64,000 bases of DNA from Sporocytophaga myxococcoides DSM 11118. GTDB lineage: Bacteria > Bacteroidota > Bacteroidia > Cytophagales > Cytophagaceae. Position 1 is the first letter of the stretch, and each line of letters opens with the position of its first letter. The translations under genes were made by a program, and so were the position numbers. Where the stretch lies: positions 372,001 through 436,000 of the forward strand of contig NZ_AUFX01000006.1 of NCBI RefSeq assembly GCF_000426725.1, read 5' to 3'. This document shows positions 25,941 through 63,575 of the stretch, one piece after another. Below the pieces are notes generated by a model. The model saw only the letters and a program-made list of their open reading frames with translations, made no database searches and was not told the DNA's origin.

Positions 25941-25957
25941 ATTTATACTTTCATACA

Positions 25958-27676: not shown

Positions 27677-27698
27677 GAGACGCCATGCATGGCGTCTC
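27677..27698. repeat. Perfect palindrome of a dispersed repeat family
   Basis: A 22-base perfect palindrome with arms GAGACGCCATG and complement, preceded directly by CTGTGATTGAACGTTTT. A degenerate copy and the same flank occur at 17030-17168. This looks like a small mobile or regulatory intergenic repeat. Confidence 0.7.
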
Positions 27699-27732
27699 TA
27701 CAAGAGCTTTCAATAATTTCTCCTAAAACAAA

Positions 27733-27765
27733 AAAAGAAATGCCCCCATTAAGAACATTTCTTTT
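27733..27765 (-). terminator. Terminator of the first FG-GAP-like gene
   Basis: Stem AAAAGAAATG / CATTTCTTTT, which in the minus direction is followed by a long T-rich run. It lies 18 bases after the stop of the gene at 27783-29216. Confidence 0.7.
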
Positions 27766-27782
27766 GTGTTTGAAAATATATA

Positions 27783-29557: not shown

Positions 29558-30964
29558 CTAAAGAACTGACAGCTTTCTGCTTTCTATGCCATTAGCAGTT
29601 CTGATCTGTAAAGTATATAAACCAGGAGTCAAAGAACTTACATCAATCTTATTTCCAGAGAAAGTTAATTTTGATGAACTTCCATTCTGACCATAAGCTT
29701 CTACGTTAAGAATTTCTTCACTACTGTTAAATGTAACTTCTGAAAGAGTTGTTGGATTTGGATATAGATTATTTACTTCAACAGCTTCTTCGAAATCAAC
29801 AGCTTCTCTTGAGCTGCTATAGATAGTACTCCAATAGTCATAAGAAACACCTGCACCAACATTTGGAATTCCGTTTTTATCAGCATATTTTCTTGAAACT
29901 AATACTTTGCTGCCTTCAATATCAACATCATATCCAAAACTATCACCAGCTTCAGTGCTTGTTCTCGTTTTCTTCAGAACCCAGCCATTCCAATCTTTAA
30001 GATAGAACTGAGCAGATACTCCGTCTACCCCAACCACAGCCTTTACGTTTTCAATAGCAACAGAAGAAGCTCTAACATTAGAGATCTGAGAAGCAACTGT
30101 CCACTGATTATTCTGAAGATCTAAAAAGAAAACACTTCCTGTTCCATTGTGGGTGGGAGCACTTACAACTGCTGTATTATCAGAAACATCAACATTCTGT
30201 CCTAATGCACCTGCATAAGTAGTTCCAGAAGAAGGAAATACATTTAGTTGAGACCATGTTCCGTTTTTAGAATAGGTATATACTCTACCTCCTTGACTTC
30301 CAGGAGCACCAACCATTAAGTAATTATTATGAAAGGCTATAGATCTTCCGAAAAGCCCATCAGCAACCACATTTGATGGAGTAAGTACTTGTTTTTTAAC
30401 CCACGTAGAACCGTTAAACTCATAAATAAAAACAGCTCCGGTCTTAACACCATTTACCGTCGCATCAGGAGAACCGATAGCAAGCGTTCCATAACCATCC
30501 AATGCAACCTGTAGAGTTGTAGATATAGTAACATCAGAATCAATTATGCTATAGCTAAAGTTATTATTCCATACACCATTGGTTTTACCAGCTATAACTG
30601 CACAAGGTCTCGGAGATGAAGACATAACAAAACCAGTAAAAGATGCAGCAACGAAATTACTATTCAAGGATACAGAACGACCTACATTCGCAACCTGCAT
30701 AGAATCTGCAGTAAGTTTGAAACTTCTTTCAAGGACGCCATTATTGTAAAGATAAACAGCTCCATGATAAGTTTTGGATCCCGATGGAGTTATAATGCCA
30801 TCTTCGTATGCACCAAATGCAGAGTAACCGCCATACTGTGCTACACTTTCTCCCATATGCGCATAAGGCACATTAGAAGAGTTAATCATGTGGGTTTGGG
30901 AAATTGCTGAAAGCGACATCGCTCCCACCATCAAATTCATTAGAGTAAATTTTAATAATCTCAT
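29558..30964 (-). CDS. Secreted FG-GAP-repeat-like protein with T9SS signal (copy 2)
   Basis: A 468-residue paralogue of the product of 27783-29216. The signal peptides are nearly identical (MRLLKFTLMNLMVGAM here against MKLLKFTLMNLMVGAM), as are most blades and the T9SS sorting domain. Differences cluster in the blade loops: this copy lacks a short segment (about eight residues after VKAVVGVDG) and carries other loop changes. Its own terminator suggests the two copies are separate transcription units. Likely a surface protein. Confidence 0.82.
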   Translation of the reverse strand: MRLLKFTLMNLMVGAMSLSAISQTHMINSSNVPYAHMGESVAQYGGYSAFGAYEDGIITPSGSKTYHGAVYLYNNGVLERSFKLTADSMQVANVGRSVSLNSNFVAASFTGFVMSSSPRPCAVIAGKTNGVWNNNFSYSIIDSDVTISTTLQVALDGYGTLAIGSPDATVNGVKTGAVFIYEFNGSTWVKKQVLTPSNVVADGLFGRSIAFHNNYLMVGAPGSQGGRVYTYSKNGTWSQLNVFPSSGTTYAGALGQNVDVSDNTAVVSAPTHNGTGSVFFLDLQNNQWTVASQISNVRASSVAIENVKAVVGVDGVSAQFYLKDWNGWVLKKTRTSTEAGDSFGYDVDIEGSKVLVSRKYADKNGIPNVGAGVSYDYWSTIYSSSREAVDFEEAVEVNNLYPNPTTLSEVTFNSSEEILNVEAYGQNGSSSKLTFSGNKIDVSSLTPGLYTLQIRTANGIESRKLSVL

Positions 30965-42525: not shown

Positions 42526-45189
42526 ATGAGAAGAAGTATACGATTACTCTTAGCCTCAATTGTTTTATTCACTTCAACTATTGCTTATTCGCAGGACCAG
42601 TGCAAAGTAGTGGGATGGGCAACACAAAACGGAAGTGTGACGGGAGGAGGTTCAGCGACACCAAAAGTTGTAAGTACTTATGCTGATTTAAAATCTGCAT
42701 TAACTACGGCATCTGTAAAAGTGGTACATGTACAAGGTACTATTACATTTCCTACAGCAGGCCGGATCAATATTCAGGACCAAAGCGGCAAAACCATCAT
42801 CGGTTTACCAGGTTCCAAAATAGTCTCTGTCGACATGACAGCAAGCGGATCCGGAATTTTTTACATTAAGAGATGTACAAATTTTATCATGCGTAACCTG
42901 ACATTTGAAGGTCCGGGTGCTTATGATACAGACGGGAATGATAACCTTACACTTGAAAATTGTCAAAATTTCTGGGTAGACCATTGCGATTTCAGAGATG
43001 GTATGGATGGCAATTTCGATATAAAAACAGCGTCAGATTATATTACTGCTACATGGTGTAAATTCAGTTATCTAAAACCTCCAAAAGCTGGCGGATCCGG
43101 AGGATCTAACGACCACAGATATACAAACCTAATAGGAAGTTCTGATGGAGCTACCGGGGATGATGGAAAGCTTAGAATTACATTTCAATATTGCTGGTGG
43201 GGTCAAGGATGCGTAGAAAGAATGCCTCGAGTGCGATTTGGGAAAATACATCTTGCAAACAACCTTTTCAATAGCACAGTTTCAAACAGCTGCATCAGAG
43301 CAGGATATAAAGCCGATCTATTAATTGAAAGTAATGTTTTCATTGGGGTCAACAAGCCTATAGACCTTTATGAAAATGACTTTACAGCAGTTACTGCCAG
43401 AAACAATATCTTCACAAACACTTCCGGTAATACTGTAGGTAAAAACACTTCTTTTACTCCTCCATATTCTCTAACAATAGCTAATGCAAGTAACGTTCAA
43501 AGCCTTGTCACCAATACAACATGTGGAGCTGGCGCAACACTTGACGGGCCAACACAATGTGGCTGTGATACTCCTGTAAATAAAGCTCCAACTGCAACAT
43601 TGAGTTCTTCTACATCATCTACATGTGTGGGGACTAAAATAACGCTCAGCGCCACTGCCACTGACACAGATGGAAATATCTCCAAAGTTGATTTTTATGA
43701 TGGCTCAACCTTACTAGGCTCTGACAATTCATCTCCATATTTATATGAGTACGCTCCAACTGCTGCTGGTACCCTATCGCTTAAAGCAGTAGCAACCGAC
43801 AACGACAATGCTACAGGTGAGTCATCTGTTATAAGCATAACTGTGTCTGCCTTGCCCACTGCTACCATATCTTCAGCTTCCAGCAGTTTTTGTGAAGGAG
43901 AATCACTTGTTCTGACTTCCAGTTCAGGTTCTTCGTACATATGGAAGAATGGAACTAATCAAGTAGGAACAGCATCAACATATAGTGCTAAAACTGCTGG
44001 AACTTATACTGTTGAAGTGACGAACTCCAGCGGTTGCAAAGCAACATCAGCAGCAAAAGAAATAACTGTAAATGCTTTACCTTCTGCTACTATCACAGCG
44101 CCTGCAAGCAGTTTCTGCGAAGGTGAATCGATAGTGCTTACAGCTAGTTCAGGTTCTTCCTACAAATGGTTAAATGGAACTACACAGGTAGGCACCTCTT
44201 CTACTTATACAGCGAAAACTGCCGGTGCATATACCGTTGAGATTACAAACTCTAATGGCTGTAAAGCAACTTCTTCTGTAAAACAAATAGGAGTAAATGC
44301 TTTACCTTCTGCGACAATCACAGCGCCTGCAAGCAGTTTCTGCCAAGGTGAGTCTTTAGTACTTACAGCTAGTTCCGGATCTTCTTATAAATGGTTGAAC
44401 GGCACTGCACAAGTTGGAACAGCTTCCACATATACAGCTAACACTTCTGGTGCTTACACTGTTGAAGTTACAAATGCCAATGGATGTAAATCAACTTCCG
44501 AGGTAAAACAAATTTCTATAATTTCATTACCAATAGCACGTATTACTGCGCCTGCAAACAATTTCTGTTCAGGCGGATCCATAATACTGACGGCAAGTGT
44601 TGGTGGAACGACCTACAACTGGTATAAAGGCAGCAGTAAGGTTGGAGAAAATCCTCTATATGAAGCAAAATCTGCTGGTGCTTATAGCGTGGAAATAACC
44701 GATGCTAATGGATGCAAAGCGACATCCGGGATTACTCAAATTGAGGAAATCACATCAACTATATGGTATCAGGATACCGACAATGATGGCCAGGGAGATC
44801 CGAGAATAACCATTGATGCATGCACTCAACCTACAGGTTACGTTGCTTCTGCTGGCGACGAATGCCCAAATGATCCTAACAAAATAGCTCCGGGAAACTG
44901 TGGCTGCAATAAATCTGAAACAGAATGCGTTACATCAACTGTAGGAGTTATTAAGTCAGAGATCACTGTATCACCACTTCCATTTGACAACTTCACTTCT
45001 ATTAGCCTTGAAAATAAAGGCACAATAGAATCAGTGACAATCATATCGGCATCTGGAGCAATTGCAGGAAAAATTACAGGCATTCACTCCAATGAAATTT
45101 TGATAGGTGAAAGCCTTGCTCCTGGCTTCTATTCAGTGATTGTACAAACCGAAACAGAAATCATTGCAACAAAAATCATCAAGAAATAA
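42526..45189 (+). CDS. PL1 pectate lyase with Ig-like repeats and T9SS signal
   Basis: An 887-residue secreted enzyme. Signal peptide ends IAYSQ. The beta-helix pectate lyase domain (about 24-350) shows the family-1 signatures: VDHCDF and RMPRVRFGKIHLANN, with catalytic Arg in that region. An Ig-like domain (about 352-440) precedes four 75-residue repeats (about 442-741, each FCxGxS ... YxWxxG ... NxxGCK). Then a DTDNDGQGDP calcium-loop segment with several Cys, and a T9SS sorting domain (SGAIAGKITG to PGFYSVIVQ). The repeats probably space the catalytic domain from the cell surface or bind polymer. A 13-bp terminator follows. Confidence 0.9.
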   Translation: MRRSIRLLLASIVLFTSTIAYSQDQCKVVGWATQNGSVTGGGSATPKVVSTYADLKSALTTASVKVVHVQGTITFPTAGRINIQDQSGKTIIGLPGSKIVSVDMTASGSGIFYIKRCTNFIMRNLTFEGPGAYDTDGNDNLTLENCQNFWVDHCDFRDGMDGNFDIKTASDYITATWCKFSYLKPPKAGGSGGSNDHRYTNLIGSSDGATGDDGKLRITFQYCWWGQGCVERMPRVRFGKIHLANNLFNSTVSNSCIRAGYKADLLIESNVFIGVNKPIDLYENDFTAVTARNNIFTNTSGNTVGKNTSFTPPYSLTIANASNVQSLVTNTTCGAGATLDGPTQCGCDTPVNKAPTATLSSSTSSTCVGTKITLSATATDTDGNISKVDFYDGSTLLGSDNSSPYLYEYAPTAAGTLSLKAVATDNDNATGESSVISITVSALPTATISSASSSFCEGESLVLTSSSGSSYIWKNGTNQVGTASTYSAKTAGTYTVEVTNSSGCKATSAAKEITVNALPSATITAPASSFCEGESIVLTASSGSSYKWLNGTTQVGTSSTYTAKTAGAYTVEITNSNGCKATSSVKQIGVNALPSATITAPASSFCQGESLVLTASSGSSYKWLNGTAQVGTASTYTANTSGAYTVEVTNANGCKSTSEVKQISIISLPIARITAPANNFCSGGSIILTASVGGTTYNWYKGSSKVGENPLYEAKSAGAYSVEITDANGCKATSGITQIEEITSTIWYQDTDNDGQGDPRITIDACTQPTGYVASAGDECPNDPNKIAPGNCGCNKSETECVTSTVGVIKSEITVSPLPFDNFTSISLENKGTIESVTIISASGAIAGKITGIHSNEILIGESLAPGFYSVIVQTETEIIATKIIKK
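43849..44748 (+). repeat. Four in-register 225-bp repeats in the pectate lyase gene
   Basis: Repeat starts fall at 43849, 44074, 44299 and 44524, exactly 225 bases (75 codons) apart. Units 2 and 3 are the closest to each other at the amino-acid level; unit 4 is the most diverged. Each encodes one Ig-like domain with two conserved cysteines (FCxG and NGCK). Confidence 0.9.
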
Positions 45190-49068: not shown

Positions 49069-52000
49069 ATGAAAAAAGTTTTTTACACATTGTTGTGTGT
49101 CTTATTATTGTCTTTAACCATCGATACAAAAGCGGCTATCACTGTCACTTCGCCTAATTCAGGTGGTTCTTATCTTGGTTGTACAGTCCAGGATATCACC
49201 TGGACAGTCTCTTTCTCTGTAAGCAGAATTAACATCTACTACTCGCTTGATGGAGGTAAAATATGGAAGCCTGTCGCACGATCGGTTAGTTATTACCCTC
49301 AATCCTATTCGTGGAACCTGCCTCAGGTAAACTCCAACAAATGTCTTATCAAAATTGAAGACTATTTCACACCAACAGATTTTGATATCAGCGACATTCC
49401 GTTTTCGATTACAAGTACAACGAGTTCATCGCTTCAACTATTAAGTCCTATAGGTGGTGAAAAATGGGGTACAACTAGCGAACAATTGATTAAATGGAAT
49501 AAAACCGGTTCCATTTCAAAAGTCAGGATAAGATACTCGTCCGACAGAGGGGCTTCCTGGGCAAACATTGACACTGCTGCAGAAAACACAGGTTCCTATC
49601 GCTGGGTTCTACCTTATAATAATATAAGCTCCAATTGTATTGTAAGGGTCAGTGACTATACTAATAACTGTATTTTTTCAGAAAGCGACTCTGCCTTTAC
49701 TATTCTGGAACAGGCCAATTACTCAGTCACCAGACCCAATGGAGGTGAGACATTTTATACTAATTCTACAGCAAAGATATTTTGGGAAAGAAGCTCAAGC
49801 AGCTCTGCATTTGTATCATTGCATTATTCCACTGATGCTGGAGCCACATGGAAGAAAATCAGTACTGCAGAATCCAATTATGGAGTATTTGATTGGATCA
49901 TTCCAAATACTGTATCTGACAAATGCCTCATAAAGGTTTCCGGCTATCCTGACGGAACTCCTGTTGATATCAGCAATGCTGTATTTTCAATTGCCAATCC
50001 TTCTATCACAATTTCTCAGCCTGCTAGTGGTGAAGCGCTCACAGGCTGCAGTAAAAAATCCATTAAGTGGACCAGCAAGGGAACTTCACCTTATGTAAAC
50101 GTTTATTACTCTGCTGACAATGGTAACACCTGGAATCAGGCAGGAAACTCTGTACTAAATTTCATAGGAAACAACTCTTTTGAATGGACAACACCTGAAT
50201 TAAGCTCTAATAAATATCTTGTAAAAATATCAGACTTTTATACACCGTCTATTTCCGGAACTAGTAATAATTTCAGCATAACAAAAAGCTCTACTGCAAA
50301 CATTAAATTAACCTCTCCAAATGGCGGAGATAGTCTCAAAACAGGTCAAAGAATTAATCTCACCTGGACTGGCACAGGTCTTTCTGATAAAGTAAATATA
50401 TACTACTCCGGAGATGAAGGTAAAAGCTGGACCACGGCTACTACAGCTCCGAACACAGGCAAATACCTTTGGACAGTTCCTCCAGCTACTACATCAAAAG
50501 GATTAGTTAAAATTACAGATGCTCAAAATGAATGCATCATAGATATGAGCGATAACTACTTTAATGTTGTCCCTGCTCCTTTCTTCAGAATTGATTTCCC
50601 TAATACTTCAAAGGATACTGTATTCCCTTCAAATTATAAAGATATACGCTGGATCAGCGGCAATATGAGCAGCAGCTATGTCAGCGTCAGCTATTCCATT
50701 GACTCAGGTTCCACCTGGGTCCCACTAAGTTCATTTGCAAGCAATGTCGGATATTATGGATGGACACCTCCTAATTTGTATTCAACAAAATGCCTTGTAA
50801 AAGTAAGTACAACAAGCACCGGTGATGGACTTGCAGAAGATATTTCCGACGAAGTTTTTACAATTGGAAAACCTAATTTAAATATTATAACTCCTAACGG
50901 AGGAGAGTCGATCAGTGGCTGTGCGACAAACAATATTACATGGAGCAGCAAAGGTGGTTCATCCTACATAAATCTGTTCTACTCTACAGATATGGGAACC
51001 AGCTGGAATCAGGTCGGAACAAGTTCATTTTCAAATAAAGAAGGTAACAATACGGCACAATGGACAGCGCCAGGAATTGCAGTTGAAAACTGTCTTATAA
51101 AAATAAAAGATGCCAGCAACCCTGCGAATGAAGATGTAAGCGATAAGGCATTTTCAATTGTTAAAACAGATACTTCTTACATTAAAATCACATATCCTAA
51201 CGCAGGTGAACCACTTGGCACTTCCAGATCGGAAAACATCACCTGGACATCATCTAAAAATGTCACGTATGTGAGTTTGAAATATTCAATTGATGGTGGT
51301 AATGCATGGACGACTATCTCTTCCTATAATGCCAATACCGGGAGTTACAAATGGCAGGTGCCGAACACTCCTTCTCAGAACTGTATCATCAATGTAACCA
51401 GTTACTCAAACTCTTGCACAACTGACATCACTGACAAGCCTTTTTCAATAGTTAAAGTACCAACTATTACTGTCAGTTCCTTTATGGACAGACAAACATA
51501 CAGATCAGGGGTTAATACAACATTATACTGGACCCCAACCAATGTTGATTCTTCCCTGGTAAAACTGGAATATTCAGTTGATTCAACGAAAACATGGAAA
51601 TTGATAGATGTTGTGAAAGGCAAAAGCAGTTATAACTGGAATATCCCGGCAGAAGCTTCTACTAAAGCTTTCATAAAGGTAAGCCTGGCTTCTAACCCAG
51701 ATATTTACGACATTAATGATGCGGCATTTACCATTCTCAAATCAGGAATAAAACTGACCTCCCCTGCAGGAGGTGAAGTTTTAAACGGATGTACAGCCCA
51801 GACCATAAAATGGAATGGCCCATCTCCTGGTGGATATGTAAAGATTGAATACTCTGCTGATGGAGGCAATAACTGGGTAACAATTAATTCCAGCGCATCT
51901 TCATCTGCTTCAGAAAATTCCTTCCAATGGACAGTTCCCGGAATACAGTCAAATCAATTCAGGATAAAACTGACAGATACAAACTCTTCTCAGAAAGACA

Positions 52001-55000
52001 GCAGTGCTAACTTCTCAGTTAATCACACAGGTAATGCCTTAACTATAACGAGTCCGACAGACAACGAAGTGATTAATACAGGAAGCGCAAAAAAAATCAC
52101 CTGGACAACCAAAGGAACTGTCAATAATGTGACATTACAATTCTATACTACAAGCAGTATATACTGGACAACTATCGCTCAGGGAATTCCAAATACCGGT
52201 TCCTATTTATGGACTGCGCCAACCATTGCTGGTGATAATTACAGGCTTGCAATCAATGACAATTCACAACCTTGTATTGTTGATTACAGCGATAAAAATT
52301 TCACTATCAAAGAAAATCCTTATATCAATGTCACCTGGGATGAATCCAACAGAAGCGTTAAATGGTATAGCAACAAACTTGACAGCAAAGCACTTCTTAA
52401 CATTGAGTTTTCATCTGACTCAATGAAGACATGGAGTACTATAGCTACTAATGAAGCAAATGACGGCACATATAGCTTCTCGTCTCCTAATAGCAATTTA
52501 ACAAACTGCTTCTTCAGAGTCAGTGAAGCCGGAAACCCATCCTTAACCGGAACTAACTTCACACCGCTCTCTTTAAGTAAACATACGACGTTAACTTTTC
52601 CTGCAGGTGGAGAAACAGTAACGGGTTGTATATCCAAATCTATTACATGGACAAGCAAAGGGTTAAATGAATTTAACATCCTTTTCTCCGCCGACAATGG
52701 AGTTACGTGGAAAATCATTGCTGATGGTGTTAAAAGTTATGGAGGAAGCAATTCCAGATACTGGAACCCGGAAGGAATAAATTCAACAAAATGCCTGATC
52801 AGGTTAGTGAGCAAAACTAATCCAGGAGTTACAGAAACCTCTGCACCTTTCACAATTCAGTATTCCGGAGGTACCTTAAAAGTTGTTGCGCCCAACGGGG
52901 GAGAAAGCTTTGGGACTTCAAGCCAGTCAGAAGTTAAATGGACAACAACTGGCAGTGTGCCCTCTGTTTATGTATCATATTCTTATGATGCAGGCCTCAA
53001 CTGGTCCAATGCTCACCCTTTCTCAATAAATAATACAGGAAAATACAAATGGACTATACCAAACAAAGCTTCAACAGACTACCTCATAAAGATATCTGAT
53101 AATTCAGGATGTATAACTGATATCAGTGATGCCAAATTCCGCGTAACAGAAACTGGAAACATTAGCATTACATCACCAAGTGCTGGAGATTCATATTATT
53201 CACGCGATAATGGTTACATCAACTGGAGTTCATTTGGCCTTTCTGAATTTGTATCACTAGATTACTCATTAGATTCTGGTTCAACCTGGACGGCCATCTC
53301 AGCAAAGGAACCTAACAATGGAAGCTACTATTGGAAAACACCTGATGTAGGGTCTGTTAAAGCAAAAGTGCGAGTCAAAGATTTTTCAAATCCTTCCAGG
53401 TCTGCAATATCTGACAGTGTATTTACCATTATCAGGCAATACATCACAATAACATCCCCTAATGGAGGAGAAACATTTAGCGGATGTACTGTTAATCAGA
53501 TTAAATGGACCAATGTAGGGCCATATTATTATAACTTGTTCTATTCAACAGACGCGGGCGCTACCTGGAATACCATTGCATCTTCTGTTTATGCCAATTC
53601 ATATAACTGGACTGTTCCGGCAACGAGTTCTGCCAAATGCCTGATTAAAGTAGTTAGTGGCTCAAACCCTGATTTGTTTGATATATCCGACGCTCAATTT
53701 ACAATTACCAATCCCGCATCTCCTGGTTTATCTCTGGTAACGCCAAATGGAGGAGAAATTTATAAGGCAGGAACAGACAAAACAATCTTCTGGACAACAG
53801 CAGGAACAATTAGTTATGTTAACATCAAATATTCATCTGACGGCGGCACAACCTGGACTGCGATAGCCAACAATACTTCAAATACAGGAAAATACAACTG
53901 GTATTTTCCTACTGTGACCTCATCGTCATACAAGGTTTCCATAGCAGATGCTTCCAACGCTTGCGTCTCAGACATCAGTGAAGCGTCATTCGCTGTACAA
54001 AGCATTCCTACAATCATTGTATCTGCACCGAAAACCGGTGATTCATTGTATAGTTATTCTACTTTCAGAGCCACAATAAGCCGGTCAACGGATATTCCCA
54101 ACTATATTGTCGAGCTCTCTACAGACTCATTAAGAACCTGGAAGAGAATATCATCTGCTTACTTTGATCCTTCAGAAAATTACAAAGTGCCTGACATAGT
54201 TTCTCACAACTGCTTTATCAGAGCTAGTTATGGAACGGCATATGGTATAAGTTCAAAATTCAGCATCGTTAGACCTGTACTCACATTAACCGCTCCTGCA
54301 GGCGGCGAAAGCTGGTTGGGATGTACTTATCAAACCATCAGCTGGTTCAGCAAAGGCAATACAGGATATGTCAATTTATATTATTCGACTGACAATGGTT
54401 CCACATGGAAAACAATTGCGAATGATTTATCAAATGTAAACGGCAAGAATACCTATCAATGGACAATTCCTGCCATAATTTCGAAGTCATGCCGAATCAA
54501 AGTTGTAAGCACAACATCAAACATGTCTTCAGAAAATGCAACTCCATTTACTGTCAATAATGGTTTGAAGTCATTTGAAGTGCTAAGTCCAATTGGTGGA
54601 GAAACATGGCCAACCGGTTCTGCTAAAACAATTTTATGGGAAAGCACAGGTAGCATTGCAAATGTTGATCTTAAATATTCTGTTGACGGAGGTACAAGCT
54701 GGAACAACATTGCTTATAATATCAAGAACTCTGGCTCCTATAACTGGACTCTCCCGGCAACAGCAAGTACCAATGCACTTGTAAGAATAAATGACAACAG
54801 CAATTCCTGCGTATTCGATCAAAGTAATTTTGCATTCAATATAAATTCTGCCCTAACATTAATTTATCCGAATGGAGGAGAAAAATTAAATGGATGCAAT
54901 AACGTTTCGATAACCTGGTCAAGCCTTGGTATTTCTAGCTACTCAAATCTTTACTATTCTATTGATGGTGGTACATCATGGAACCTGATTGCCAGCGCTG

Positions 55001-58000
55001 TTCCGACAACTACCGGCAATAATACTTATTCATGGAAGGTTGTAGGCAATGCTTCTTCAAACTGTCTTGTTAAAGTTGTTGATTATTATAATAAAGCTAT
55101 TTCAGATGCTAGTAATGCAAAGTTCTCTATAGAGGGCACTGGTTCTTCCACAATTACAGTAACCAGTCCTAATGGTGGTGAAAGCTGGGGTACAGGAAAA
55201 CAAAAACTCATTACATGGACAGGAGTAAATGTTAGCGATAAAGTCAACATAAGTTATTCATCTGATGCAGGAAACACCTGGTATACACTTGCAACTGGAA
55301 TTACAAATACTGGTTCCTTCGACTGGCGACTCCCAGGAGATGTTACTTCAAAATACCTAGTAAGAGTTTCTGACAATGCCAACAGTTGTGTGACAGATCA
55401 GAGTGATGCTCTTTTCAATGTGATACCAATGCCGTTTATCACCATTAACTCATTGAATAGCTATGAGAAAATATATTCCAAGAATTATAAAACCTTGTAC
55501 TGGTCAAGCGGAAGTCTGAAGTCAATCAACCTGACGCTTGAATACTCTGTTGATAGCATGAAGACTTGGAAAAGCATTACAGGAGGATACAATTTCGGAG
55601 GGAACTTCGATTGGTATGTGCCAAACGAGAAATCTGATAAATGCTTTATCAGAATCTACGACACTAACGATCCTTCTACATTTGATATCAACAATGCAGC
55701 GTTTTCAATATCCAACCCTAATATTACTTTAACCTCTCCGAATGGAGGTGAAAACTGGGCTGCGTGTTCTGAGCAGAATATAATATGGACAAGTGAACAG
55801 ACTTCCAATAAAGTAAACATAAGTCATTCTACTGATAATGGAGTAAGCTGGAGTACAATAGCCAGCGGCATCAATAATTACACCTACAATACCTACACAT
55901 GGAAAGTGCCATCAACCGCTTCCGGGCAAAATAAGATCAGGGTGCAGGATTATAATAATTCTTCCCTGAATGATATATCTGAACAGGTATTTACCATCAG
56001 CAATAATGTTGCAACCATTACACTTACTAGTCCGAATGGAGGAGAAGTACTGAAAGGTAATACTCAGAAAAATATTACCTGGACAAACACAGGTAGTATC
56101 AGCACTGTGAGAATTAGTTACTCCACCAACAACGGTGTGTCATGGACCAGCATTATTAATAGTTTACCAAACAACGGCTCATACAATTGGACTATCCCCA
56201 ATAACATCTCTTCTACACAGACCCTTATTCAGGTGAGTGATAATGGAGGTTGTGCTACAGATCAAAGTAATGCTCCCTTCTCTATTGAAGCCATCCCGCT
56301 TTTTACTCTGACGAATCCTAATGGAGGACAAATACTCGGAATCGGAACAACAACTTATATCGTGTGGAATCTGATCAATGCCCCAATGCAGTCTGTTAAT
56401 GTTGATTATACAACCGACAATGGGCTGACCTGGACAAACATCGCAACACAGCAACCATCAACAATGGAGTATCTCTGGTTGATTCCTAATACCCCATCTA
56501 GCCAATGTAGGGTAAGAGTTACTTCAGCTTCAGATCCTTCCTTGACGGTAATGAGTAGTAGTACATTTACCATAGCTCCGGCTGAAATGAGACTACTATC
56601 GCATAATGGTGGCGAAATACTTTCGTCCTGTGCTTCATCAACTATCACCTGGACAAATACATTGTTTAATACTGTTAGTTTATATTTCTCTTCCGATAAT
56701 GGAAAATCGTGGTCAAAGATCACCACACGGGACAGACAAAGCGGCATTAGTTCATTGAACTGGACAGTCCCTCCTATCAACTCTGATCATTGTCTCTTTA
56801 AAATTACTTCAGAGTCTGACACTACAATGTCTGATGTAAGCAACAGTACATTTACCATCAAAAATAGTTTTGTACCAACGATTAAAATTACAAGTCCTGA
56901 TGGTGGAGAAAACTGGGCAAATGGAACCCAAAAGACAATAACATGGACAAGTGACGCCTCAGTAAAGTCAGTTATCATAAAATACTCTTCTGACAATGGA
57001 ACGACCTGGACATACATTGACAGATATGTTACCAATACAGGCTCTTACAACTGGACATTGCCATCCAGAGTTTCTTCTTCAAAAACATTGGTGCAAATAT
57101 CTGACGTTGACAATATCTGTAACTTAGACGTTAGCAATGCCTCATTTAATATCACAGGTACACCTATACTAAATTTGATTTCGCCAAACGGAGGAGAAAA
57201 AATAGTTGCCGGAAGTTTAACTACAATAAACTGGGATGCATCATTTATAGCAGGGAAAATAAAACTTGAATATTCACTGAATTCAGGAACTTCATGGACA
57301 CTCATTTCTGATACCATAAGCAACATCGGAAACTATAACTGGCAAACTCCTACTTTAGAGTCAACATCTGGTCTTATCAGAATCAGTGATGCGGGGAATG
57401 CTTCAGTTTCTGACATAAGCAGTTCAGCATTCACACTAGAATATGCAAAAATAAGAGTATCAAGACCTAATGGTAAAGAAAGCTGGTATGGCAATACTGT
57501 TAAGTCGATATTCTGGAGTTCAACGAATATGGGTTCTTCTTTTGTAAAGATCGAATACTCGATAGACTCTGCAAGGACATGGAAAGTCATAACTGATAAA
57601 GAAGTAAATGATGGTGCCTATTCCTGGACCCTACCAAACTCAGGATCTATAAATTGTTATGTAAAAGTCAGTGATTACAATAACCCTGCGATATATGACA
57701 TGAACGATACCGTCTTCACAATGATAAGACCAGCATTTACGATCCTTTCACCTAATGGAGGAGAGACATTAAAGTCATGTACTTTCACCACTGTAACCTG
57801 GACAGGAAACAGTACCGGTAACCTATATTATTCAACAGACGGTGGAACCAGCTGGACAAGCTTCCCTGGAGGGCTTATAGGAAACTACAGCTCAAGCTGG
57901 AATGTTCCAAACATCAGTTCCAGCAAATGTCTTGTAAAAATTGTAGATCCAAATGATGCTACTCAATTTGATATCAGTGACGTAGCATTTACCATTGATA

Positions 58001-61000
58001 ATACCAAACCAACTATTAAATTAACTTCACCTAATGGAGGAGAAACATGGGGAACCGGAGAAAGCCGCAATATTACCTGGACTGCACCTGAAGAAGTTAA
58101 GTTTATTAAACTGGAAGTTTCTATAAATAATAGTTCTTACGGTGATCTCTTTTATAGTGAACAAGTTGCTAATACAGGTTCAAAAGCCTGGACAGTTTAT
58201 AATAACCCCGGTACTGCCAAAGTACGAATCAGCGACAAAGGAAGCTGCGCATCAGATGAAAGTGATGCTGCATTTACAATTAAAGCAGCTCCGTTCATTT
58301 CTGTGAAAAGCCCCGACGATGTACATCAATGGACCGCCGGAACATACCATGAAATAGAGTGGAATAGTGGCAACCTTACGAATGGAAAAGTAAATGTTCA
58401 CTATTCAACAGACGGCGGAAGATCATGGATACTTATAGAATCCAATTACAGTGGTTCCACTATTTACTGGAAAGTTCCTTATACATACACGGATAATTGT
58501 GTTATCAGAGTTGCGGATGCCGGAAATTCTTCAGTGTTTGCGACATCACAATATATATTCAAGATTGTCAAGCCAACGTTCTCCTATATAAGTTTCAGTA
58601 ATGGGAAAGAGTTAAGCGCTTGTATGAGAACCAATATTTACTGGAGTTCCCCAAGCAGTGCCGTTAATATATATTATTCCACAGATAGCGGTGCTACATG
58701 GAAAAACATCGTTAGAAATGTAAGTCCAAATCAATATGAATGGACTGTGCCTCAGGAAAATTCAACAAAATGTTTTGTAAAAATTACAGACTCAGGGGAT
58801 GAAAGTGCCTTTGGCATTGGTGATGTAATGTTCAGCATTAACAATCCTGTACGTACTTTAAAATTAACAACAACATTCAATGACACGAAGACTGGTAGTC
58901 TTAAAACAATCAGTTGGGAAAATACAGGTAATGTTTACAATGCTTTACTCGAATATTCAACAGATGGAGGCACAAGCTGGAAACTTATTGAAGACGTATA
59001 CTCTTATGGTCCGTATAAATGGAGAGTACCGAACGATCCATCAGTCAATGCTCTCTTCCGCATATCAGACAAAGCAAGCTGTGCTGTAGCGCAAAGCAAT
59101 CCATTTAAAATTGAGGCAGTGCCATATATTTATACTGTCAAGCCGGAAGGCAATGAAAATTGGGACGCAGGAACCACACAGTATCTATATTGGTCTACTG
59201 GAAACCTTGCCAGTCAGGCTGTAAATCTATATTACTCTGCTGATTCAGCAAAAACCTGGACCAAATTCGGATCTACAAGTGAAAGCTATTTTGTATGGAC
59301 TGTTCCCTACATCTCATCTTCAAAGGTGTTTATCAAAGTAAGCTCTGCAACTAACCCAGCTGTTTACGGGATGAATGAAAAGCCATTTACCATTTCAAAG
59401 CCAGAGATTACGGTTAAGTTTCCGAACGGAGGAGAGAAGCTTACAGCATGTGTCAACAATGTCATTCGTTGGGAAAATAAAGGAGTAGGCTCTGTATACC
59501 TCTATTACTCAACAGACAATGGTCTGACATGGACAAGAATTTATTCCAACCCAAGTTACAAAGACGGATATGAAAACTGGGCATTGCCGGAGCTAAGTTC
59601 CTCTAAAGTTCTTATAAAGGTTGCCGATGCTAAAGATCCTATGATATATGATGTGAGTGATGCGGTATTTGAGATTCAAAATGTAAACACAACTTCGACT
59701 TTGAAGCTTTCCGCTCCTAATGGAGGAGAAGTATGGGACACTTATAGTGAACATGAAATTAAGTGGACAACTACAGGTACTGTCAAGAATGTCAATCTGA
59801 TGTACTCCACCTATGGAGGGCTTGATTGGCAATTCATTACATCCATACCTAATACAGGTTCCTATACATGGCAGATTCCCAATACACCTACCCTATCAGG
59901 AGTTTTAAAGATCATGGATGCAGAGAGCTGTGTAAGTGATGTCACTGATAATCAGTTCGACATCAAAATAGTACCATCAATCAAAATCGAGTATCCGAAA
60001 CTGGGAGATGATCTTACCCAGTCTGCAGAAGTATATGTTGGCGGAAGAGCAGCAAATCTTAGCTCAGACTATGTAAAGCTTGAATATTCTACTAATGGTG
60101 GAGCCTCATGGATATTTATAACAGAGAATGCAACAACATCTTTTAACGCATTCTATTATTATTGGAAAATACCTATGATTACTTCGTCCAATGTGTTGCT
60201 AAAAGCCAGTGATCCGTTGGATCCAAAAGTCTACTACATCAGTGAAATTTTCAAAATTTCTCCCGCAACTAATGTATGGCCTGGTGACGTTGATAATAAT
60301 GGTGTAGCAGATGTTTATGACATGCTTCCTATTGGTTTGAATTTTGGAGAAACAGGAATCCCAAGAGCATCCATATCCACTGAGTGGAAGGCTTTTGATG
60401 CACAGAACTGGAACAAGTTACAGAGCAATGGTCTTGACATGAAGTTCAGTGACTGCGATGGCAATGGTAGTGTTTACTTCCAGGACACACTAGCTATCAT
60501 CAAAAACTACGGGCTTACCCATCCGAAGTCAAGTAACTTAAGAATAGCTGCAGAAGCTGACCTGTTCCTAATTTTCACACAACCACCTGTGCCTGGAGAA
60601 ATCATAGAGGCAGAGATTTGGGCTGGTAAAAGTTCTGCTCCGGTAAACAGCCTTTATGGAATTGCATTCAACCTAGAATTTAATGCAGATGCAGTAGAGC
60701 CAAACTCAGCATCCTTATCATTCAAAGAAAACTGGTTGGGTACTATAGGTTCACAAGCAATAGGTGTCTATAAAGCATTTGAATCTATCGGAAGAATTGA
60801 CGGATCACTTGTAAGATTTGACAAGACTTCAAAGACAGGTTATGGAAAAATTGCCAACCTGAAAATGAGGCTGAAGCCAACTGCACAATATTTATCAATA
60901 GGCTTTACAGCTAACAAGGCAGTGAATTCCAATGGCACCCCTATTATCCTGTCTCCGAAGTCAGAGAGCGTAGTAATGATTGCGACATCAGCTCATGGCA

Positions 61001-61242
61001 CAACTAATACACTTCAGGCTGAAATGTATCCAAATCCTACAAGTGGTGAGGTATATATCAAAACTTCGCTTGAAGGCAAGGTTGATATTACAATCACCAA
61101 CACACTTGGAGAAGTTGTATTCAGAGAAACATCTGAGGAAAATAATCTTCATTTAAGTCTGAATGACTTGCCAGGCGGTGCATACTTCGTGAAGATTGAT
61201 CATGAAAGCGGAACAACGATTAAAAAGTTAATTCTTCAATAG
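49069..61242 (+). CDS. Giant modular surface protein: 39 Ig-like modules, dockerin pair, cohesin-like domain, T9SS signal
   Basis: A 4057-residue secreted protein. Signal peptide (about 1-23, ending TKAA), then 39 modules of about 95 residues (24 to about 3732), each built on SPNGGE, IxW, a YSxDGGxTW turn, W-x-(V/I)P, a (C)LIKVSD strand and D-(I/M)SD-xxFxI. The modules resemble the Kre9/KNH-type Ig-like domains known from some prokaryotic surface proteins. They fall into three classes repeating A-B-C. Residues 3737-3815 hold two dockerin-type calcium loops (DVDNNGVADVYD and DCDGNGSVYFQD), 3825-3970 a cohesin-like domain, and 3980-4057 a T9SS sorting domain (YPNPTSGEVYI). No catalytic motif was seen, so an adhesin or scaffold role is inferred. 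Confidence 0.9.
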   Translation: MKKVFYTLLCVLLLSLTIDTKAAITVTSPNSGGSYLGCTVQDITWTVSFSVSRINIYYSLDGGKIWKPVARSVSYYPQSYSWNLPQVNSNKCLIKIEDYFTPTDFDISDIPFSITSTTSSSLQLLSPIGGEKWGTTSEQLIKWNKTGSISKVRIRYSSDRGASWANIDTAAENTGSYRWVLPYNNISSNCIVRVSDYTNNCIFSESDSAFTILEQANYSVTRPNGGETFYTNSTAKIFWERSSSSSAFVSLHYSTDAGATWKKISTAESNYGVFDWIIPNTVSDKCLIKVSGYPDGTPVDISNAVFSIANPSITISQPASGEALTGCSKKSIKWTSKGTSPYVNVYYSADNGNTWNQAGNSVLNFIGNNSFEWTTPELSSNKYLVKISDFYTPSISGTSNNFSITKSSTANIKLTSPNGGDSLKTGQRINLTWTGTGLSDKVNIYYSGDEGKSWTTATTAPNTGKYLWTVPPATTSKGLVKITDAQNECIIDMSDNYFNVVPAPFFRIDFPNTSKDTVFPSNYKDIRWISGNMSSSYVSVSYSIDSGSTWVPLSSFASNVGYYGWTPPNLYSTKCLVKVSTTSTGDGLAEDISDEVFTIGKPNLNIITPNGGESISGCATNNITWSSKGGSSYINLFYSTDMGTSWNQVGTSSFSNKEGNNTAQWTAPGIAVENCLIKIKDASNPANEDVSDKAFSIVKTDTSYIKITYPNAGEPLGTSRSENITWTSSKNVTYVSLKYSIDGGNAWTTISSYNANTGSYKWQVPNTPSQNCIINVTSYSNSCTTDITDKPFSIVKVPTITVSSFMDRQTYRSGVNTTLYWTPTNVDSSLVKLEYSVDSTKTWKLIDVVKGKSSYNWNIPAEASTKAFIKVSLASNPDIYDINDAAFTILKSGIKLTSPAGGEVLNGCTAQTIKWNGPSPGGYVKIEYSADGGNNWVTINSSASSSASENSFQWTVPGIQSNQFRIKLTDTNSSQKDSSANFSVNHTGNALTITSPTDNEVINTGSAKKITWTTKGTVNNVTLQFYTTSSIYWTTIAQGIPNTGSYLWTAPTIAGDNYRLAINDNSQPCIVDYSDKNFTIKENPYINVTWDESNRSVKWYSNKLDSKALLNIEFSSDSMKTWSTIATNEANDGTYSFSSPNSNLTNCFFRVSEAGNPSLTGTNFTPLSLSKHTTLTFPAGGETVTGCISKSITWTSKGLNEFNILFSADNGVTWKIIADGVKSYGGSNSRYWNPEGINSTKCLIRLVSKTNPGVTETSAPFTIQYSGGTLKVVAPNGGESFGTSSQSEVKWTTTGSVPSVYVSYSYDAGLNWSNAHPFSINNTGKYKWTIPNKASTDYLIKISDNSGCITDISDAKFRVTETGNISITSPSAGDSYYSRDNGYINWSSFGLSEFVSLDYSLDSGSTWTAISAKEPNNGSYYWKTPDVGSVKAKVRVKDFSNPSRSAISDSVFTIIRQYITITSPNGGETFSGCTVNQIKWTNVGPYYYNLFYSTDAGATWNTIASSVYANSYNWTVPATSSAKCLIKVVSGSNPDLFDISDAQFTITNPASPGLSLVTPNGGEIYKAGTDKTIFWTTAGTISYVNIKYSSDGGTTWTAIANNTSNTGKYNWYFPTVTSSSYKVSIADASNACVSDISEASFAVQSIPTIIVSAPKTGDSLYSYSTFRATISRSTDIPNYIVELSTDSLRTWKRISSAYFDPSENYKVPDIVSHNCFIRASYGTAYGISSKFSIVRPVLTLTAPAGGESWLGCTYQTISWFSKGNTGYVNLYYSTDNGSTWKTIANDLSNVNGKNTYQWTIPAIISKSCRIKVVSTTSNMSSENATPFTVNNGLKSFEVLSPIGGETWPTGSAKTILWESTGSIANVDLKYSVDGGTSWNNIAYNIKNSGSYNWTLPATASTNALVRINDNSNSCVFDQSNFAFNINSALTLIYPNGGEKLNGCNNVSITWSSLGISSYSNLYYSIDGGTSWNLIASAVPTTTGNNTYSWKVVGNASSNCLVKVVDYYNKAISDASNAKFSIEGTGSSTITVTSPNGGESWGTGKQKLITWTGVNVSDKVNISYSSDAGNTWYTLATGITNTGSFDWRLPGDVTSKYLVRVSDNANSCVTDQSDALFNVIPMPFITINSLNSYEKIYSKNYKTLYWSSGSLKSINLTLEYSVDSMKTWKSITGGYNFGGNFDWYVPNEKSDKCFIRIYDTNDPSTFDINNAAFSISNPNITLTSPNGGENWAACSEQNIIWTSEQTSNKVNISHSTDNGVSWSTIASGINNYTYNTYTWKVPSTASGQNKIRVQDYNNSSLNDISEQVFTISNNVATITLTSPNGGEVLKGNTQKNITWTNTGSISTVRISYSTNNGVSWTSIINSLPNNGSYNWTIPNNISSTQTLIQVSDNGGCATDQSNAPFSIEAIPLFTLTNPNGGQILGIGTTTYIVWNLINAPMQSVNVDYTTDNGLTWTNIATQQPSTMEYLWLIPNTPSSQCRVRVTSASDPSLTVMSSSTFTIAPAEMRLLSHNGGEILSSCASSTITWTNTLFNTVSLYFSSDNGKSWSKITTRDRQSGISSLNWTVPPINSDHCLFKITSESDTTMSDVSNSTFTIKNSFVPTIKITSPDGGENWANGTQKTITWTSDASVKSVIIKYSSDNGTTWTYIDRYVTNTGSYNWTLPSRVSSSKTLVQISDVDNICNLDVSNASFNITGTPILNLISPNGGEKIVAGSLTTINWDASFIAGKIKLEYSLNSGTSWTLISDTISNIGNYNWQTPTLESTSGLIRISDAGNASVSDISSSAFTLEYAKIRVSRPNGKESWYGNTVKSIFWSSTNMGSSFVKIEYSIDSARTWKVITDKEVNDGAYSWTLPNSGSINCYVKVSDYNNPAIYDMNDTVFTMIRPAFTILSPNGGETLKSCTFTTVTWTGNSTGNLYYSTDGGTSWTSFPGGLIGNYSSSWNVPNISSSKCLVKIVDPNDATQFDISDVAFTIDNTKPTIKLTSPNGGETWGTGESRNITWTAPEEVKFIKLEVSINNSSYGDLFYSEQVANTGSKAWTVYNNPGTAKVRISDKGSCASDESDAAFTIKAAPFISVKSPDDVHQWTAGTYHEIEWNSGNLTNGKVNVHYSTDGGRSWILIESNYSGSTIYWKVPYTYTDNCVIRVADAGNSSVFATSQYIFKIVKPTFSYISFSNGKELSACMRTNIYWSSPSSAVNIYYSTDSGATWKNIVRNVSPNQYEWTVPQENSTKCFVKITDSGDESAFGIGDVMFSINNPVRTLKLTTTFNDTKTGSLKTISWENTGNVYNALLEYSTDGGTSWKLIEDVYSYGPYKWRVPNDPSVNALFRISDKASCAVAQSNPFKIEAVPYIYTVKPEGNENWDAGTTQYLYWSTGNLASQAVNLYYSADSAKTWTKFGSTSESYFVWTVPYISSSKVFIKVSSATNPAVYGMNEKPFTISKPEITVKFPNGGEKLTACVNNVIRWENKGVGSVYLYYSTDNGLTWTRIYSNPSYKDGYENWALPELSSSKVLIKVADAKDPMIYDVSDAVFEIQNVNTTSTLKLSAPNGGEVWDTYSEHEIKWTTTGTVKNVNLMYSTYGGLDWQFITSIPNTGSYTWQIPNTPTLSGVLKIMDAESCVSDVTDNQFDIKIVPSIKIEYPKLGDDLTQSAEVYVGGRAANLSSDYVKLEYSTNGGASWIFITENATTSFNAFYYYWKIPMITSSNVLLKASDPLDPKVYYISEIFKISPATNVWPGDVDNNGVADVYDMLPIGLNFGETGIPRASISTEWKAFDAQNWNKLQSNGLDMKFSDCDGNGSVYFQDTLAIIKNYGLTHPKSSNLRIAAEADLFLIFTQPPVPGEIIEAEIWAGKSSAPVNSLYGIAFNLEFNADAVEPNSASLSFKENWLGTIGSQAIGVYKAFESIGRIDGSLVRFDKTSKTGYGKIANLKMRLKPTAQYLSIGFTANKAVNSNGTPIILSPKSESVVMIATSAHGTTNTLQAEMYPNPTSGEVYIKTSLEGKVDITITNTLGEVVFRETSEENNLHLSLNDLPGGAYFVKIDHESGTTIKKLILQ
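49138..60264 (+). repeat. A-B-C super-repeat array (39 modules, 13 of each class)
   Basis: Class A modules begin at about 49138, 50002, 50875, 51745, 52582, 53440, 54277, 54850, 55720, 56584, 57733, 58576 and 59404. The usual step is 828-873 bases (three modules). Two steps differ: 573 bases (one C module missing at 54850) and 1149 bases (an extra C-type module at about 57447-57732). Class A has a Cys at (G/S/A)C near its N-terminus, class B a Cys before xDxSD near its C-terminus, and class C starts mostly with Pro and often has YSxDSxxTW. Confidence 0.85.
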
Positions 61243-61757: not shown

Positions 61758-63575
61758 TTATTTCCCTCTTTCATTTAATCTCAATGCAAAATCCATAACA
61801 ACGTCTCTTCCGGCAATAACATCCTCAAGAGAAGGCTTTATTTCATAGTCAGGTATAATTCCTCTGTTTTTAGGCATGGGCTTTACATCTACAACATTGG
61901 TCATTTGAGCAACGCTTAAATTCAATTTCGTATAGCTTAATACAAAATTCTTAGAAGCTGCATTGCACGTATAGGTTGCACAGGTCTCCTGACCTATAAA
62001 CTTTCCTAACTTATGGTACTTAATCAATGCATTAAGGTGTCCAGATGTTGAACCTCCTCCATTATCAATGAGTATAAATAATTTGCCATTGAAAGCATTA
62101 GTTGCTGGACCTATAGGAGCTTTAAGCTTATCATAGTATGGATGTGCTTTATCAAAATATTTAATAGGCTTATTGATGAGATAAGAAAGCAAATAAGATG
62201 AACAATAAGGATCACCGCCTCCAATACCTCTGTGGTCAAAGATCAGATTACTTATATTTTTTTCTTTAATCTTTTGAAAATAGTCATCAACAAAAGCTTT
62301 GAAATAATCCAGCCTATCGTAATAAACAAAAGACTTGATAGTTATAACTGCCGTATTCTTATCCTCCAATATAGAAAAACAAAGATTGGCATCAAGGCAC
62401 TTTGTACTATCATATAACTTATTTTCAACAACTTTAAAATCGGCAATAGTAAAAGAACATACTTTTGCTTCTTCCCTTTTAAAAGCTTTATACTTCAGAA
62501 TATACTTATCATAAGCTCCATAATACAGGGCATAAAAATAGCTGAATGAATTATTCAGATACCATAGTTTACCGCTTTTATTATAACCATCCGCAGGAAT
62601 GTTATTATATATTGTTGAATAAATTTCAGATACAGGTTTACCATTTATTTCTATAATTTCTGCCCCTGGTGTTAACTCTGGAACGAGTTCATTTGATTTA
62701 ACCACATACATTCTTTCATTTTCAAAATAAACATTTAATGGAAAGAATGAGGACGCAGGCAATATCGAAAGCCTTCTATCGATTAATAAAGTATGACTGC
62801 ATCCTACCTTTGCCACAACAGGGCTACAAATCGAATAGAATTCTGTAAGGTTTAATGAATCCTTAATTTTATTAAACTGAAGATGACTCAGCTTCTCGAA
62901 CTCTTTCTTAGAAGTAAATTCATTTGGGGCAGGATGAGATTTCAAGTAAGAGATCATTTCTAAATAGTCACTTTGCAGTTGATTTTTTGAATAAACGAGA
63001 GGTTTACTTTCTTTAATAGACTTCAAGCCCTCGGCTAGTGTATCTCCTGCTTGATTAAAAAATAATACATTTAAATCATCAAACCATGCTGTGCCAGTGC
63101 AGTTGCTTAAGAAGCAAAAAACTTTGATCTGACTCGCGCCTTTTAAGATCTCGTAGCTGTTTTTGTAGTAAGTCCATTCTGTACTCCCCTTTTGTTGCCC
63201 GACAGGGCTTACTTCTCCTTTAGCTAATTGTCCGTATTCATCTTGAATTTCCAATGCTATACTAGCTTTCCAATAAGGGGAGAATCCCTGGATTACATTT
63301 TCAGTTTTCATCCATCCGGAAACTTCTACCCTGCTTATTCCTTGTGGAAAAGCTATTATTTGATAAGCCCCGCTAAATTTCGGTGTAACTTGAGAAACTT
63401 TTAATGCAAAAGTACCGCTGTGCACAATTTCCGTTTGATAATCTCCTGCATTTAAAATTGCCCATTCATTGTAATTATTTTCAAAGCCTGGATCTTTTAA
63501 AACGTTTTTAGATTGAGAGAACGCTGTTATAGAAAGGGTAACAGTTGACAGAAATAGAAATATTCTTTTCATCAT
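61758..63575 (-). CDS. S41-family (C-terminal processing-like) secreted peptidase
   Basis: A 605-residue protein with a signal peptide ending TAFSQ. Residues about 22-175 look like a carbohydrate-binding/galactose-binding-like beta sandwich (DPGFENNYNEW, then WFDDLNVLF). A PDZ-like segment follows (GAEIIEINGKPVSEIY), then the S41 domain with DHRGIGGGD and the nucleophile in NGGGSTSGHLNA (Ser511 most likely), with a Lys/Gln region KFIGQETC behind it. There is no T9SS sorting domain, so it is periplasmic or uses another route. Substrate unknown. Confidence 0.82.
   Translation of the reverse strand: MMKRIFLFLSTVTLSITAFSQSKNVLKDPGFENNYNEWAILNAGDYQTEIVHSGTFALKVSQVTPKFSGAYQIIAFPQGISRVEVSGWMKTENVIQGFSPYWKASIALEIQDEYGQLAKGEVSPVGQQKGSTEWTYYKNSYEILKGASQIKVFCFLSNCTGTAWFDDLNVLFFNQAGDTLAEGLKSIKESKPLVYSKNQLQSDYLEMISYLKSHPAPNEFTSKKEFEKLSHLQFNKIKDSLNLTEFYSICSPVVAKVGCSHTLLIDRRLSILPASSFFPLNVYFENERMYVVKSNELVPELTPGAEIIEINGKPVSEIYSTIYNNIPADGYNKSGKLWYLNNSFSYFYALYYGAYDKYILKYKAFKREEAKVCSFTIADFKVVENKLYDSTKCLDANLCFSILEDKNTAVITIKSFVYYDRLDYFKAFVDDYFQKIKEKNISNLIFDHRGIGGGDPYCSSYLLSYLINKPIKYFDKAHPYYDKLKAPIGPATNAFNGKLFILIDNGGGSTSGHLNALIKYHKLGKFIGQETCATYTCNAASKNFVLSYTKLNLSVAQMTNVVDVKPMPKNRGIIPDYEIKPSLEDVIAGRDVVMDFALRLNERGK

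Follow-up and report, generated by a model that had tools for sequence, protein, structure and literature searches.

Organization of the giant protein

The window analysed here is a 64,000-nucleotide stretch of the genome of Sporocytophaga myxococcoides DSM 11118, a soil bacterium of the family Cytophagaceae in the Bacteroidota (positions 372,001 to 436,000 of contig NZ_AUFX01000006.1). It contains an open reading frame (ORF) for a giant protein of 4057 residues, which consists of a hydrophobic start visible by eye in the translation, 39 immunoglobulin (Ig)-like modules, a weakly dockerin-like C-terminal stretch and a type A sorting domain of the type IX secretion system (T9SS) (Table 1). The modules belong to three classes, A, B and C, and A and B each carry one cysteine in loops that are expected to face each other across the joint between them. 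From these sequence features we consider it likely that the protein is a secreted or surface rod whose unit is an A-B pair joined by an inter-module disulfide, with C acting as a free spacer.

An iterated hidden Markov model (HMM) search recovers exactly 39 modules, the lowest-scoring at 55 bits; this count and our class assignment agree with the original prediction of 13 modules of each class, which had been made by reading the DNA alone. The modules are tandem β-sandwiches of the Ig/FN3-like type. The whole protein matches the Kre9/KNH-like Ig family (PF10342) with 61.9 bits (cut-off 24.6), and when modules 21A, 22B and 23C were compared singly, 22B alone gave a match, slightly under the cut-off (23.0 bits). 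In Pfam, Reelin subrepeat B ranks first for the complete sequence (158.3 bits, cut-off 27), but no single stretch passes. The sorting domain marks the protein as probable T9SS type A cargo. A Pfam scan of the whole protein at E values up to 0.01 found six families, none of which is the SprB repeat (PF13573) of SprB-type gliding adhesins. Sequence comparison with solved structures gave no convincing relative of the modules, the profile matches being mostly short sialidase and Reelin stretches, and the best 50 Foldseek matches, with template modelling (TM) scores of 0.18-0.27 normalized to the query, contain no useful chain-level match.

Table 1. Coordinates in the window of the giant protein gene and its parts
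Feature	Coordinates	Strand	Remarks
Giant protein ORF	49069..61242	+	4057 residues; hydrophobic N-terminal start, T9SS tail
Units 1A-2B	49138..49716	+	Cys codons 49180 and 49669, proposed staple
Unit 3, class C	49720..50004	+	
Units 4A-5B	50005..50580	+	Cys codons 50047 and 50533, proposed staple
Unit 6, class C	50584..50877	+	
Units 7A-8B	50878..51462	+	Cys codons 50920 and 51415, proposed staple
Unit 9, class C	51466..51747	+	
Units 10A-11B	51748..52320	+	Cys codons 51790 and 52273, proposed staple
Unit 12, class C	52324..52584	+	Part of N-terminal strand region missing
Units 13A-14B	52585..53157	+	Cys codons 52627 and 53110, proposed staple
Unit 15, class C	53161..53442	+	
Units 16A-17B	53443..54009	+	Cys codons 53485 and 53962, proposed staple
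Unit 18, class C	54013..54279	+	Longest end branch in the 39-module tree
Units 19A-20B	54280..54852	+	Cys codons 54322 and 54808, proposed staple; no C after
Units 21A-22B	54853..55434	+	Cys codons 54895 and 55387, proposed staple; adjoins 20B directly
Unit 23, class C	55438..55722	+	
Units 24A-25B	55723..56298	+	Cys codons 55765 and 56251, proposed staple
Unit 26, C slot	56302..56586	+	Atypical: B-like or A-like, without staple Cys
Units 27A-28B	56587..57165	+	Cys codons 56629 and 57118, proposed staple
Unit 29	57169..57450	+	Likely extra filler, atypical
Unit 30	57451..57735	+	Typical C
Units 31A-32B	57736..58293	+	Cys codons 57778 and 58246, proposed staple
Unit 33, class C	58297..58578	+	
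Units 34A-35B	58579..59124	+	Cys codons 58621 and 59080, proposed staple
Unit 36, class C	59128..59406	+	
Units 37A-38B	59407..59976	+	Cys codons 59449 and 59929, proposed staple
Unit 39, class C	59980..60270	+	
C-terminal non-module region	60271..61023	+	Partly dockerin-like, weak: PF00404 10.0 bits, under cut-off
Type A T9SS sorting domain	61024..61233	+	PF18962 56.7 bits; TIGR04183 51.4 bits (cut-off 23)

Successive A modules are spaced by 867, 873, 870, 837, 858, 837, 573, 870, 864, 1149, 843 and 828 bases; the predicted range of 828-873, its two exceptions and their sum of 1722 are all exact. The short step corresponds to a C missing at the junction 20B/21A (54853), within a few bases of the predicted place (54850). 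The long step does contain a surplus unit where an extra C had been placed (57447-57732), but the module at that place, unit 30, is a proper C, and the odd one is its neighbour, unit 29. Both irregular places touch C alone and leave every A-B pair unbroken, as expected if the pair is the unit and C a filler.

The three module classes

With the two diagnostic cysteine columns masked, the difference between within-class and between-class similarity exceeds that of all 5000 label shuffles, and many alignment columns differ by class. Mean identities (A-A 0.376, B-B 0.379, C-C 0.299, A-C 0.293) indicate that A and B are tight classes, whereas C is looser, its members being no more alike among themselves than A is to C. 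A tree of the 39 modules requires 3, 3 and 4 class changes for A, B and C, compared to about 11 in shuffles (none of 500 as low). One clade per class is not rejected by the approximately unbiased test (p-AU 0.41, 0.21 and 0.27), while grouping by position, in the form of a clade of units 1-20, is rejected (p 4e-91). In a quick tree of 211 modules, which is drawn from four orthologs and three paralogs and omits the two cysteine columns, all 64 B modules lie on one side of a branch (Shimodaira-Hasegawa-like approximate likelihood ratio 94), and A and C require 6 and 7 class changes against about 55-57 in shuffles.

The expectation that A, B and C would form three clades with unit 30 in C is therefore borne out for the sorting by class and for unit 30; it fails for the sharpness of C, a loose group from which units 26 and 29 wander. 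Weak forks are frequent in these trees. The 39-module tree places units 26 and 29 among the B modules (99/93); unit 29 is back with C in the 211-module tree, where unit 26 stands beside 24A in three of four orthologs, its fourth copy grouping with the C modules 12 and 36. Class HMMs from three trainings assign units 29 and 30 to C each time, and unit 26 to C once and to B twice. When trained on the paralog family only, with the cysteines masked, these HMMs classify 34 of the 39 modules correctly (A 9/13, B 12/13, C 13/13); masked HMMs from distant Bacteroidota recover 26, and distant sequences together with paralogs 29.

Cysteines at presumably facing poles of A and B

Of the 47 cysteines of the protein, 45 lie in the modules; of the other two, the start contains one and the second is near the C-terminal stretch. 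The module cysteines comprise 19 at a buried position of strand F (alignment position 68), 13 at position 15 and 13 at position 79. Every A has its position-15 cysteine in the AB loop and every B its position-79 cysteine in the FG loop (13/13 for both), no C has either, and A-B neighbours are coupled one to one in all 13 cases. In an AlphaFold model of an ABCA block (predicted local distance difference test, pLDDT, 90.8) position 15 follows the first strands and position 79 precedes the last, and the strand order assigns C15 to the AB loop and C179 to the FG loop. By standard Ig topology these loops would lie at opposite poles and face each other across the joint of consecutive modules. A disulfide "staple" could thus connect the AB-loop cysteine at the C-terminal pole of A to the FG-loop cysteine at the N-terminal pole of B, with a free C module separating successive stapled pairs; such a staple would stiffen the A-B joint. 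A metal site was considered as a further role of these residues and rejected, as there is no class-linked enrichment of histidine.

The five full-length public orthologs found (P0002-P0006; module identities of 87, 82, 61, 49 and 42%) all have 39 modules and an identical placement of the 13 pairs, in contrast to the varying number of trimers that had been anticipated among homologues. Each retains all 26 diagnostic cysteines; the ortholog at 42% identity keeps 15 of the 19 buried cysteines and 107 of 123 tryptophans. P0004 (unit 13) and P0006 (units 4 and 19) are the sole orthologs with extra cysteines in the AB or FG loops.

The strand-F cysteine at position 68 is common in the wider family described below, where 3044 of 8126 modules possess it (1539/2816 in stapled and 1505/5310 in other arrays) without an obvious partner.

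Coupling of neighbouring modules in related proteins

To survey related arrays we combined 273 proteins, drawn from three protein searches (the best 120 of 371, of 1401 and of 351 matches), with 17 ORFs from related loci, giving 290 sequences and 8126 modules. The ORFs L055, L106 and L104 were dropped as copies of P0002, P0122 and P0233, while three pieces of an ortholog from genome G003 and the paralogs were kept. The set contains 133 stapled proteins; the other 157 have fewer than two AB-loop cysteines and hence no staple array. Those stapled relatives that carry taxon names are Bacteroidota (e.g. Cryomorphaceae, Flavobacteriales, Aureispira, Brumimicrobium, Ferruginibacter and Bacteroidales).

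When a module with an AB-loop cysteine is followed by another module, the latter has an FG- or BC-loop cysteine in 1042 of 1062 cases; after the 6774 modules lacking an AB-loop cysteine the next module has an FG cysteine in 39 cases and a BC cysteine in 98. An AB and an FG cysteine occur together in only 19 of the 8126 modules, which led us to reject an intradomain disulfide between them for these KNH modules. There are 877 AB-to-FG neighbours; when the modules of the 133 stapled proteins were reordered at random 1000 times within each protein, the mean was 376 and the maximum 417. After clustering, a facing cysteine follows in 435 of 447 cases at 60% identity and in 49 of 53 at 45% (counting neighbours no more than 12 residues apart). 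Scanning every pair of positions over 7545 neighbours, with position 68 excluded, recovers three couplings, 15 to 79 (819, expected 94), 16 to 27 (141, expected 3.6) and 64 to 25 (27, expected 0.1), each running from a loop at the C-terminal pole of one module to a loop at the N-terminal pole of its successor. Separately, positions 73 and 81 form a second, perhaps intradomain, cysteine pair, with 22 modules carrying both against 0.1 expected (P0033, P0059, P0078, P0092 and eight other proteins).

The spacing of the coupled modules varies. Sixty-six arrays start with three trimers of the pattern bt- and 14 with tetramers of the pattern bt--; P0063 and P0071 share the order btbt with the giant protein, and btb[bu] arrays show an additional coupling of C to the next A. 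The same A-B pair is thus spaced by zero, one or two fillers among relatives, which leads us to regard the stapled pair as the unit and C as a filler, and argues against the trimer as an indivisible unit.

Continuation of the pattern in Ig_7 arrays

Arrays whose final module has an AB-loop cysteine are always followed by another cysteine within 110 residues (108/108). That these terminal cysteines are unpaired was rejected for those directly followed by a run of at least three Ig_7 modules: there are 51 such runs, and in all of them the first Ig_7 module contains both cysteines. Both are present in 625 of 629 interior Ig_7 modules. The last Ig_7 module lacks its AB-loop cysteine in 33 of 36 runs when no cysteine follows within 100 residues, versus 7 of 45 when one does (18/21 versus 4/23 when each 60% cluster and run number is represented by a single run, p 1e-5). 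As intradomain pairs would retain both cysteines in the last module, the usual absence of the AB-loop cysteine there when no cysteine follows suggests that the interior Ig_7 modules are joined, each to the next, as a disulfide ladder.

We are inclined, with some reserve, to generalize these patterns to a "staple code" of Bacteroidota. Facing-pole cysteines would bolt one module to the next, the number of free modules between bolts (zero, one or two) would set the period of stiff and flexible joints, and arrays passing from KNH to Ig_7 modules would continue as a ladder, so that covalent bonds would strengthen the chain along the greater part of its length; the giant protein would be the case with 13 bolts and a period of three.

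It might instead be supposed that the period is the trace of an old three-module duplication and that the two cysteines are inherited class marks that form no bond. The classes are indeed common to a paralog of the giant protein (see below) and differ in many columns. However, mere marks would hardly explain why all 26 cysteines are kept down to 42% identity, why the coupling persists in period-4 and mixed arrays and through two other loop pairs, or why array ends mostly lack an unmatched cysteine, and we regard this possibility as improbable.

Weighing the inter-module disulfide

Several observations weigh against the inter-module disulfide or limit the force of the counts. Shared ancestry makes these counts non-independent, and the clustered values are the safer ones. 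The scan also shows couplings of 79 to 16 (143 versus 15 expected), 27 to 79 (156 versus 21) and 54 to 79 (36 versus 4), which we take for by-products of the fixed array order. Twenty AB-loop cysteines have no facing cysteine in the next detected module, four of them beside gaps of 104-1638 residues, and 39 FG-loop cysteines have no AB-loop cysteine in the module before. Among the 98 BC-loop cysteines without a preceding AB-loop cysteine, 27 follow a position-64 cysteine and 60 follow a module free of cysteine except at position 68. Linker lengths differ little when all stapled proteins are taken together, with a median of 1 residue at AB-FG joints and 0 at unstapled ones. As for the machinery, the genome encodes three DsbA-family proteins, of which L111 and L112 show, when read by eye, a hydrophobic or lipobox-like start and a CxxC motif, but Pfam detects neither DsbB nor VKOR in it. 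The models are similarly equivocal: the ABCA block has a predicted TM score (pTM) of 0.60 and its lowest pLDDT (75) at the A-B linker, versus 91-93 at the other joints, and the A-B pair modelled alone reaches a pTM of 0.63, so that AlphaFold does not show a fixed interface. In the giant protein itself the A-B linker is the longest, with 0-4 and mostly 2-3 residues versus mostly 0-1 elsewhere. This long linker and the low model confidence at the same place would fit a joint that is loose unless held by a bond.

The low pTM of the ABCA block bears also on the proposal, part of the original prediction, that a whole A-B-C trimer packs as one structural unit with a regular twist. Exactly one C follows A-B in 11 of the 13 blocks and linkers are nearly constant for each type of junction, which speaks for such packing; yet relatives carry the same pair with zero, one or two fillers and C is the loosest of the classes, and together with the model confidence this leaves the packed trimer very unlikely.

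The last point concerns the Ig_7 runs that begin without a detected AB-loop cysteine before them: all 30 have an FG cysteine in the first module (13 with both cysteines, 17 with FG alone), and a ladder would need a cysteine partner in the domain preceding them. These runs would also fit cysteines that join different chains, in side-by-side bundles or dimers, rather than neighbouring modules of one chain. Neighbour coupling alone does not place the partner in the same chain, and the surfaces involved could also serve a staggered bundle. Nevertheless, the rule of facing poles and the rule at array ends follow directly from bonds within a chain and need extra assumptions between chains, and inter-chain bonding appears to us a rather poor explanation. 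We accordingly retain the in-chain staple between A and B as the preferred reading of the giant protein.

Orthologs, paralogs and duplication of module blocks

A paralog in the same genome (L009, with relatives in genomes G001-G004 and G066) has the arrangement C-ABC-ABC-ABC-ABC followed by five or six modules without class marks. Its trimers carry the same two cysteines, and in the 211-module tree its A and B modules fall inside the groups of the same class, in keeping with the predicted descent from a trimer ancestor. Duplication by trimer blocks, likewise predicted, can be seen as a process in P0122 from a Cryomorphaceae metagenome-assembled genome (L106:2384-7237, minus strand), where two trimers are 97-100% identical per module; judged by its sequence this is a fresh block duplication. 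In a third copy A and B are 92-96% identical and C just 38%. Block-like duplication is also found with a period of four in P0228 and P0264 and of eight in P0063. In P0228, P0264, P0253 and their relatives the period of four modules consists of a staple and two fillers, and modules four apart in P0228 are up to 94% identical.

Comparison of its classes does not allow the succession of trimer duplications within the giant protein to be recovered (Mantel test of A versus B r 0.10, p 0.33; A-C and B-C also negative). Since the five full-length orthologs share one layout, the irregular loss and gain of C must be old. The suggestion that a single C had moved from one place to the other finds no support, as units 29 and 30 are not sisters and the same layout is seen in all these orthologs. 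The lack of a sister relationship also led us to reject a recent tandem copy of a C as the source of the extra unit. Among 18 matches in G001, one of the four genomes of the genus searched, the 39-module array is absent, and the matches represent the shorter paralog and other, smaller groups. In G003 a 39-module ortholog (L056:3865-16064) is spread over three overlapping frames, reflecting either sequencing error or decay.

Functional context and comparison with known systems

The neighbours of the gene encode a GH26 enzyme with a CBM35 domain, a pectate lyase carrying four Ig_7 domains, a CotH protein with a T9SS tail slightly under the cut-off (25.8 versus 27), and an S41 peptidase; further upstream, within 20487-30964, three ORFs have T9SS tails above the cut-off. 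Based on the T9SS tail, the architecture, these neighbours and the genus, we infer that the protein serves as a stiff stalk on the cell surface of a cellulose degrader that moves by gliding. After type IX export by this Sporocytophaga-type bacterium, the rod of FN3/Kre9-KNH-like modules might hold the cell at, or reach toward, plant polysaccharide.

Joining of consecutive Ig domains by a disulfide has a parallel in the myelin-associated glycoprotein, whose bond is of the Siglec type. This C37-C165 bond between Ig1 and Ig2 helps to limit movement in a semi-rigid rod (PMC5150538), as predicted here for the A-B joint. The animal receptor has one such bond, whereas 13 periodic ones are predicted for the giant protein, and no homology is claimed.

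RTX adhesins are exported by type I secretion, in contrast to the type IX route of the giant protein. Their extenders resemble it as tandem β-sandwich modules that build a long surface rod with stiffened joints, but the linkers are stiffened by calcium (PMC7493085) rather than by a predicted disulfide, and one RTX case has about 120 identical repeats (PMC4083281) as opposed to three diverged classes. A giant adhesin of Mobiluncus comprises 51 Ig-like domains and contains four kinds of bond, ester, isopeptide, thioester and disulfide (PMC10619420); it shares with the giant protein a giant Ig-like chain and, as predicted for the latter, covalent reinforcement. The cross-links described for it lie within domains and its interdomain linker is called flexible, whereas the coupling in the giant protein is between domains. 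In the gliding of Bacteroidota, disulfides between envelope proteins are known (PMC12635249). The portions of the proteome and transcriptome literature on Sporocytophaga that were consulted contained no statement on the giant protein.

The stiffness of long bacterial Ig-like stalks has so far been known for calcium linkers and within-domain cross-links; here the sequence by itself predicts another way, with periodic inter-module disulfides at specified joints. If true, this would explain the periods of three or four modules in many unnamed giant proteins. No description of such arrays was found in the open-access literature searched by titles and the beginnings of abstracts, a scope outside which most subscription papers fall.

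The Ig_7 array of the neighbouring pectate lyase is matched, with an E value of 3.8e-150, by the repeats of grappling hook protein A (GhpA) from Aureispira (PDB 9flp and other entries). These repeats represent a solved relative of the Ig_7 family, the second family in which we see the putative ladder pattern. The 39-module protein has no match to GhpA at an E value of 0.01, its sole PDB match being a T9SS-tail stretch in 8glk_D. In the pectate lyase (ORF 42526-45189, plus strand) the four Ig_7 repeats, at 43864-44757, contain both cysteines each, and the preceding domain (Big_7/PKD) has a cysteine at residue 367, about 13 residues into the domain, a possible place for an AB-loop cysteine. The ortholog of the S41 peptidase gene (61758-63575) in another genome (L114/L117, G002:C44:14391-16189) is divided into two separate frames, the second of which contains three stops.

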